Of a stretch of DNA of 52,909 nucleotides, positions 7,104 through 8,280 are shown one piece after another. This DNA comes from Bacteroidota bacterium (GTDB taxonomy: Bacteria; Bacteroidota; Bacteroidia; Flavobacteriales; JADGDT01). The number at the start of each line of letters is the position of its first letter. Within the stretch, counting starts at the first letter, position 1. The position numbers and the translations under genes were made by a program. Where the stretch lies: positions 1 through 52,909 of the forward strand of contig JBDLJM010000007.1 of NCBI GenBank assembly GCA_039714315.1, read 5' to 3'. The notes under the pieces are model-generated. The model did no database searches, was not told the DNA's origin, and saw nothing but the letters and a program-made list of their open reading frames with translations.

Positions 7104-7131
7104 TTGTATTTCAAAAAAAAGATTATCTTTG
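7104..7131 (+). promoter_or_regulatory. Bacteroidota-type promoter of rpsP
   Basis: A perfect -7 box TATCTTTG (7124-7131) is preceded, 17 bp upstream, by TTG (7104-7106) as the -33 element. This agrees with the known flavobacterial consensus TTG-N17-23-TAnnTTTG. Transcription would begin near 7135-7138, exactly where the first leader hairpin starts. Confidence 0.7.
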
Positions 7132-7136
7132 CACCC

Positions 7137-7208
7137 GCTTTCCTTCGGGTAAGGTAAAGCAAATAATTAATCAGAGGTCGTGCACCTCATTAACAGGGTC
7201 GAGTACCC
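7137..7208 (+). ncRNA. Structured 5' leader of rpsP, candidate ribosomal-protein leader
   Basis: Three consecutive hairpins fill the predicted leader. Hairpin A: GCTTTCCTT (7137-7145) with AAGGTAAAGC (7151-7160), one bulged T and a CGGGT loop. Hairpin B: GAGGT (7174-7178) with ACCTC (7184-7188), loop CGTGC. Hairpin C: GGGT (7196-7199) with ACCC (7205-7208), loop CGAGT. B and C share the pattern GGTCGnGnACC, which suggests two copies of one recognition element. The start codon of rpsP follows 17 bp later. Binding of S16 to its own leader is an inference; I cannot say whether a published leader family covers it. Confidence 0.45.
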
Positions 7209-7225
7209 ACTAATAATTATAAATT

Positions 7226-7750
7226 ATGGCAACTAGAATTAGATTGCAAAGACACGGACGTAAAGCTCGTCCATTTTACCACATCGTAGTAGCAGATACA
7301 AGATCTAAGCGTGACGGTCGTTACATCGAAAAATTGGGAATTTACAACCCTATTACAAATCCTGCAACAATTGAATTGGACTTCGATTCTGCTGTTAACT
7401 GGATGATGAAAGGTGCTGAGCCTTCAGATACTGCAAAAAGAATCCTTTCTTACAAAGGTGTATTGCTTAAAAAACACTTATTGGAAGGAGCTAGAAAAGG
7501 TGCTTTAACTGAAGAACAAGTTGAAGCTAAATTCGAAGCTTGGTTAAAAGAAAAAGAAGCTAAACTTTCAGGAAACGCTGACGCTATCGCTAAAGCTTCT
7601 TCTGATGCTAAAGCTGAAGCTCTAGCAAAAGAGAAAGAAGTAAACGCTAAACGTGCTGAAGAAATTGCTGCTAAAAATGCTCCTGTTGTTGAAGAGACTC
7701 CTGCAGAGGAAGCTCCGGCTGCTGAAGGAACAGAGGAAGCTGCAGAATAA
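7226..7750 (+). CDS. rpsP: 30S ribosomal protein S16
   Basis: The N-terminal 85 residues are a clear bS16: RIRLQRHGRKARPFYHIVVAD, then DGRYIEKLGIYNP and the motif for the conserved tail region with DTAKRILSYKGV. S16 sits in the body of the 30S subunit and is needed for its assembly. The protein is 174 residues, about twice the classical length. The extra C-terminal part (from about 100) is rich in Ala, Glu and Lys and ends acidic, a low-complexity extension common in Bacteroidota S16. It leads a tight operon with rimM (8-bp gap), the same pairing seen in many bacteria, and has its own promoter and structured leader. Confidence 0.97.
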   Translation: MATRIRLQRHGRKARPFYHIVVADTRSKRDGRYIEKLGIYNPITNPATIELDFDSAVNWMMKGAEPSDTAKRILSYKGVLLKKHLLEGARKGALTEEQVEAKFEAWLKEKEAKLSGNADAIAKASSDAKAEALAKEKEVNAKRAEEIAAKNAPVVEETPAEEAPAAEGTEEAAE

Positions 7751-7758
7751 AGTATTTT

Positions 7759-8280
7759 ATGCTTAAAGAGGATTGCTTTTTAGTAGGGTGGATCGTCCGA
7801 AAGCATGGGTTCAAGGGTGATGTTATTATCAAATTAGATACTGATGTACCCGAACAATACGAAAATATGGAATCAATCTTTCTCGCTCAAGGGGAAGATT
7901 TGGTTCCTTATTTTTTTGAACGCAGTAGCTTTACGAACAAAGGATTCATGAAAGTTCATTTTGAAGGTGTGGATACAGAAGAAGAGGCCGATAGAATTAT
8001 GAAATCGGAACTATTTCTTCCTTTAGACTTTCTTCCTGAGCTGGACGAAGATGCATACTATTATCACGAAATTGTCGGTTATGATGTAGTAGATGCAAAA
8101 CATGGAAGTATTGGAGTTGTAAAATTAGTAGACGACAGCTCTGCTCAAAAACTTCTTATTGTTGATCACGATGGCATTGAAATAATGATCCCAATGGATC
8201 ATATGGTCAATAAAGTTGATAAAGAGAAACACATAGTTGAGATAGAAACACCTGATGGTTTATTGGATCTTTACTTGTAA
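7759..8280 (+). CDS. rimM: Ribosome maturation factor RimM
   Basis: A 173-residue protein of normal family length. The N-terminal RimM domain (about 5-85) contains VGWIVRKHGFKGDVIIKLDTD, the typical G-x-HGxxGxxx opening. The C-terminal PRC-barrel domain (about 95-170) starts at YYYHEIVGYDVVD and includes IMIPMDHMVNKVDKEKHIVEIETPDGLLDLY, much as in other RimMs (shown here only in shortened form by its ends). RimM binds S19 and helps mature the head of the 30S subunit. It follows rpsP by 8 bp, so it is cotranscribed and functionally linked to small-subunit assembly. An imperfect hairpin lies in the 78-bp gap before trmN6. Confidence 0.96.
   Translation: MLKEDCFLVGWIVRKHGFKGDVIIKLDTDVPEQYENMESIFLAQGEDLVPYFFERSSFTNKGFMKVHFEGVDTEEEADRIMKSELFLPLDFLPELDEDAYYYHEIVGYDVVDAKHGSIGVVKLVDDSSAQKLLIVDHDGIEIMIPMDHMVNKVDKEKHIVEIETPDGLLDLYL

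Follow-up and report, generated by a model that had tools for sequence, protein, structure and literature searches.

A tandem, three-hairpin form of the predicted S16 leader upstream of rpsP in a Bacteroidota genome and its likeness to the tip of 16S rRNA helix 17

Eckert and Weinberg (2020) predicted the S16-Flavobacteria ribosomal leader upstream of rpsP-rimM and graded it a likely candidate; S16 binding and repression of rpsP by this leader stand in their paper as prediction only (PMC7247131). A search of the literature returned no experimental test of the leader binding S16 or repressing rpsP. Rfam holds the family as RF03138, a single 35-nt hairpin element. Table 1 of the 2020 paper marks the leaders of eL15, L20, one S4 and archaeal S15 as resembling rRNA, and S16 does not carry that mark (PMC7247131). 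On the ribosome, S16 recognises helices 15 and 17 (h15/h17) of 16S rRNA in E. coli (PMC5591316), and in C. acnes a contact between bS16 and h17 is reported (PMC10085706).

The window analysed here is the whole stretch of 52,909 nt from contig JBDLJM010000007.1 of a Bacteroidota bacterium; the host genome is 3.4 Mb, and the closest named relative in our search was an Ichthyobacteriaceae MAG. On the forward strand, the rpsP ORF (7226–7750) encodes the 174-aa ribosomal protein bS16, the presumed ligand, and is itself the presumed regulated gene. The rimM ORF (7759–8280, forward strand), identified by sequence and context as encoding the 16S rRNA processing factor, begins 8 nt 3' of it. Matches to rpsP of the tblastn type were found in 223 of 248 genomes of the order. 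A putative sigma-A promoter of the Bacteroidota type (7104–7131, forward strand) comprises a TTG upstream element at 7104–7106 and a TAnnTTTG -7 box at 7124–7131. In F. psychrophilum this box occupies -12 to -5 (PMC9723704), which places the predicted +1 near 7136, one base 5' of the first hairpin, as in the sequence-only reading, where a promoter had been proposed to start transcription at that hairpin. A TAnnTTTG/TTCG box at most 150 nt from the start is present in 179 of 246 homologous leaders, compared to about 30 in shuffles. A sigma-70 scan of the E. coli type did not flag the promoter at 7124–7131; promoters of Bacteroidota lie outside its model, and its result was given no weight.

The hairpins upstream of rpsP are real, and all three are present on the forward strand. 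Hairpin A (7137–7160; GCUUUCCUUCGGGUAAGGUAAAGC) is 5'-terminal, with the apical part CCUU-CGGGU-AAGG. Hairpin B (7174–7188; GAGGU-CGUGC-ACCUC) is of the S16 type and lies 37 nt 5' of the start codon, and hairpin C (7196–7208; GGGU-CGAGU-ACCC), the start-proximal S16-type hairpin, lies 17 nt 5' of it. Hairpins B and C had been described as two look-alikes; they do repeat one loop pattern in tandem, but the count is three, as hairpin A has the same W-CGNGN-W loop (U-CGGGU-A) and is a divergent third copy. Pair probabilities are 0.8–0.97 for A, about 0.87 for B and about 0.83 for C. The total folding energy of the leader is unremarkable (z = -1.26), and energy alone lends no support to the structure. 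Three hairpins with the shared loop occur in all three genomes of the window's genus. Hairpin B is kept in both congeners, and the apical part of hairpin A reads ACCU-CGAGU-AGGU and ACUU-CGAGU-AAGU, so that its loop is conserved while its stem covaries across the three genomes with pairing maintained (CCUU/AAGG, ACCU/AGGU, ACUU/AAGU). In one congener (G001, leader L002), an extra 5'-terminal hairpin, GCUUUCC-GCUAAG-GGGAAGC, precedes the three S16-type hairpins and does not have a CGNGN loop.

The window leader is a tandem, three-copy form of the already predicted S16 family. It was first taken for a possible case of S16 autoregulation that could not be cited for this phylum; since such a leader is already in the literature (PMC7247131 Table 1) and in Rfam (RF03138), it is not unprecedented. 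The suggestion of an S16 leader was right in kind, but it was not new. Like RF03138, the leader lies directly upstream of rpsP (for the family, usually of rpsP-rimM), its hairpins B and C have a GGUCGAGAACC-like core, and the structure is supported by covariation. At the place of the outer AUUAAU...AUUAAU stem of RF03138, hairpin B has the flanks AUUAAU and AUUAAC, with one mismatched pair, and the minimum-energy fold contains other long-range pairing. An Rfam search over 5 kb around the leader gave no match up to E = 5. With a 111-base query, hairpin B aligned end to end to RF03138 at 20.0 bits, the gathering score being 35.7. At the same place in relatives, RF03138 scored above this threshold (L013, 43.6; L037, 53.4; L070, 50.8 bits). 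Comparison with the Rfam leader families, as had been proposed, therefore identified the family through hairpin B and the relatives, while the window copy itself stayed below the gathering score. This threshold is a curated cut-off and not a biological feature, and the window copy cannot be filed automatically; at only 20 bits, it would be missed by annotation pipelines.

To place the leader among its relatives we used a sample of 246 distinct rpsP leaders from the class Bacteroidia. A W-CGNGN-W hairpin is found in 97 of them (~40%), compared to a mean of 1.3 in shuffles (~0.5% expected). At least two such hairpins occur in 8 leaders and in none of the shuffles; if a TTNGN loop is also allowed, the figure is 20 leaders against 0.2 in shuffles, a few of the 20 (e.g. 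L046, L071, L089, L249) looking like chance A/T-rich stems. Pentaloops are strongly biased to CGNGN, with 75 on stems of at least five pairs, compared to 0–2 for permutations of equal composition such as GCNGN, GNCGN and NCNCG. Outside the class, the hairpin was seen in 1 of 30 rpsP leaders from sister classes. In most relatives the start-proximal hairpin ends 13–20 nt before the AUG. Two-hairpin leaders with CGNGN or UUNGN loops exist in other lineages (L013; L022/L023; L024/L025; Sinomicrobium L037/L042/L048/L075; L070; L211), and two-hairpin leaders with UUCGU loops in L066 (Crocinitomicaceae) and L096. Several Bacteroidales (e.g. L047, L056, L084, L087, L099) have an A-type 5'-terminal hairpin alone, such as CUCCUAU-CGGGU-AUAGGAG, and no start-proximal one.

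Several variants were observed alongside these forms. In L005, L009, L011, L022, L030 and others, a UUNGG loop (GGGU-UUCGG-ACCC) replaces CGNGN at the same start-proximal position, and L008, L010, L016, L018, L116, L121 and L127 carry start-proximal variants with weak stems (AAUCA-CGAGA-UGGUU, ACUA-CAGAGA-UAGU). Seven rpsP leaders from other Bacteroidia without a CGNGN hairpin (L146, L155, L162, L163, L180, L191, L200) share another 5'-terminal hairpin with a loop that has GGAGA(A/C) as its last bases, for example CCGCUGA-ACAGGAGAC-UCAGCGG; it could represent a second rpsP leader element, so far undescribed. The rpsP leaders L144, L153, L165 and L171 have in common a post-promoter segment, CC..GC.....CUCCGGG..(A)UAUGUUGAAUACAU, possibly a further leader type.

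Covariation was measured in an alignment (A1) of 77 hairpins chosen by loop, position and closing pair, including five distal hairpins added by hand and excluding the window's genus. The stem showed 130 double-change cells compared to 42 in shuffles, with a covariation score of 0.70 against 0.18 and none of 500 shuffles scoring as high; conservation with compensatory changes in relatives, on which the sequence-only reading had been staked beforehand, was thus observed. Double changes occurred in all six pairs, and 81% of cells were paired, compared to 52% when shuffled. Because the closing pair was used in selection, the covariation evidence lies in the other pairs; the outermost of the six is mostly unpaired. 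The conserved core is the pentaloop W-CGNGN-W on a freely covarying stem.

A model built from A1 (R1), and so without the window's genus, has hairpin C as its top match in the whole 3.4-Mb genome (21.6 bits); hairpin A is a weak match at 11.3 bits. The rpsP leader is the top match in all three genomes of the genus, and in G001 the top genome-wide match sits at the hairpin B position. A second genome-wide match, C66:8986-9008, was taken as chance, since it overlaps the beginning of an unrelated gene that runs on the other strand. When R1 was run on 30 relatives, the rpsP leader was matched in 15 of the 18 genomes with any match; three of these 15 belong to the window's genus and were untrained, and the other 12 have leaders in the training set. 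These data bear on whether the hairpins serve mRNA stability or basal translation with no regulator bound, which we consider very improbable. Hairpin A does sit at the extreme 5' end of the predicted transcript, a typical place for a protective hairpin, and in Flavobacterium initiation is adjusted by mRNA structure close to the start codon (PMC6847099). However, a stabilising role needs no fixed loop, whereas the stem of these hairpins varies freely around a constant loop, and the top model matches in relatives lie mostly at rpsP.

The same loop is found in 16S rRNA. The h17 tip of Bacteroidia has a freely varying stem, an A-U or U-A closing pair and a CGUG loop, replaced at times by CGAG or CGGG; several genomes have a pentaloop there, CGUGU or CGUGA. 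W-CGNG(N)-W is present at the h17 tip in 28 of 31 Bacteroidia 16S sequences (31 of 35 with further sequences added) and in 0 of 11 from sister classes; about 0.14 such sites are expected per shuffled 16S. In the three assemblies of the window's genus no 16S was found, and the comparison is with other Bacteroidia. In one of these (L289), the h17 tip GGGU-CGUGU-ACCC is one base apart from hairpin C, GGGU-CGAGU-ACCC. Most h17 tips are W-CGUG-W tetraloops and most leader loops are pentaloops, with a few of each taking the other's form; the h17-like tetraloop is used by the leaders L051, L135 and L157. Since most h17 tips are tetraloops, R1 scores only one of them clearly (L289, 16.8 bits, E = 0.16), and the case for mimicry is built on the scan for the loop and on controls at class level, not on this search. 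Mimicry of h15 (GGGC-GAGA-GCC), the initial idea, was dropped, as h15 loops vary in the 16S sequences fetched (ACGAAAGU, GCGCAAGC, AGGAAACU) while the h17 tip is constant.

Set against 16S sequences from other genera of Bacteroidia, the leader element has both sequence and structure in common with the rRNA site of the presumed ligand. The association is at the level of the class; it supports, and does not prove, mimicry of the h17 tip by the leader. Families with a UUNGG leader loop keep CGUG in h17, so leader and h17 loops do not vary together from one genome to the next, and many Bacteroidia rpsP leaders have no hairpin although the h17 loop is present (e.g. G249, G274, G275). S16 might bind the leader hairpins in a way unrelated to rRNA, W-CGNG-W being a small, stable loop favoured in this class that h17 and the leader each use on their own account. 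We regard this as unlikely. It would agree with leader loops that are mostly pentaloops, and in some lineages UUNGG, with the missing genome-by-genome correspondence, and with the 2020 paper, where S16 is not marked as rRNA-like (PMC7247131). On the side of mimicry, both the leader hairpin and the h17 loop are confined to the same class in our sample. Moreover, on stems of at least five pairs the loop form occurs in 16S only at the tip of h17, a helix that S16 contacts, and at a conserved segment near position 106 that is unpaired in the accepted 16S model, compared to 0.14 expected per shuffled 16S.

The probable explanation, in our view, is that S16 represses translation of its own mRNA by way of a leader that mimics the h17 tip, in which the tandem copies would be repeated docking sites; the leader at 7136–7225, as a three-hairpin member of the S16-Flavobacteria family, is part of that explanation. 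The hairpins themselves are observed, with their conservation, covariation, spacing and place before rpsP, and so is the loop form they have in common with h17 tips; that S16 binds and represses, and that the copies cooperate, is here inferred. Each hairpin would offer one small recognition element, a C-G-N-G-N pentaloop with an A-U or U-A closing pair, imitating the apical loop of h17, a helix of the S16 binding site. Whenever more S16 is made than new 16S rRNA can take up, the free protein would dock on the leader loops as on the h17 tip. Bacteroidota start translation without help from a Shine-Dalgarno sequence, and mRNA structure together with upstream A residues modulates this step (PMC6847099). 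Hairpin C, about 17 nt 5' of the AUG, would lie where the footprint of the initiating 30S subunit has its 5' border; S16 bound there would block 30S loading at rpsP and, via the operon, at rimM. Hairpins B and A may be additional docking sites, raising the effective affinity or steepening the response.

We also weighed whether the hairpins bind a factor other than S16, such as RimM or another 5'-domain protein, and judge this most improbable. The rimM gene is in the same operon, but RimM acts on the 3' domain of 16S rRNA. S4 and S20 likewise contribute to the shape of the h17 region (PMC5591316). On the other side, rpsP is the sole ribosomal-protein gene presumed to be under control of the leader, and those who described the family attributed it to S16.

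Returning to S16 as the ligand, we lean on balance towards the view that throughout Bacteroidia its leader imitates the h17 tip by means of a minimal W-CGNG(N)-W loop, whose copies could be multiplied in tandem and moved with function kept: 5'-terminal in Bacteroidales, start-proximal in Flavobacteriales and at all sites in the window's genus. In the literature searched, the hypothesis of h17-tip mimicry was not found reported for the S16 family. Until now the flavobacterial S16 leader has been a computational prediction. A recognition loop shared with h17 would provide a testable reason for the ligand and would account for what the leader conserves. The element is also broader than the one hairpin in Rfam, taking in leaders with several copies and those of Bacteroidales, which the present Rfam model does not pick up, and the natural series of one, two and three copies could show what tandem protein sites add to feedback control.

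Among known systems, the closest is RF03138, which like the window leader is start-proximal, upstream of rpsP-rimM and from the same bacterial class; the gene order here is that of the operon given for the family (PMC7247131 Table 1). The core of the family's own hairpin, GAGGU-CGAGA-ACCUC, enclosed there by AUUAAU outer pairing, has its counterpart in hairpin B. Whereas the Rfam model has one hairpin, the window leader has three with an identical loop form. The apical hairpin of Bacteroidia h17 resembles the leader hairpins in its variable stem and in the A-U or U-A closing pair around CGNG(N); it differs in being mostly a tetraloop and part of the ribosome, the leader hairpins being mostly pentaloops on mRNA. 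The rRNA-mimicking leaders of eL15, L20, one S4 and archaeal S15 likewise resemble the rRNA site of the protein encoded downstream. S16 is absent from that list, and the target proposed for its leader would be the h17 tip, imitated by a short loop in tandem.
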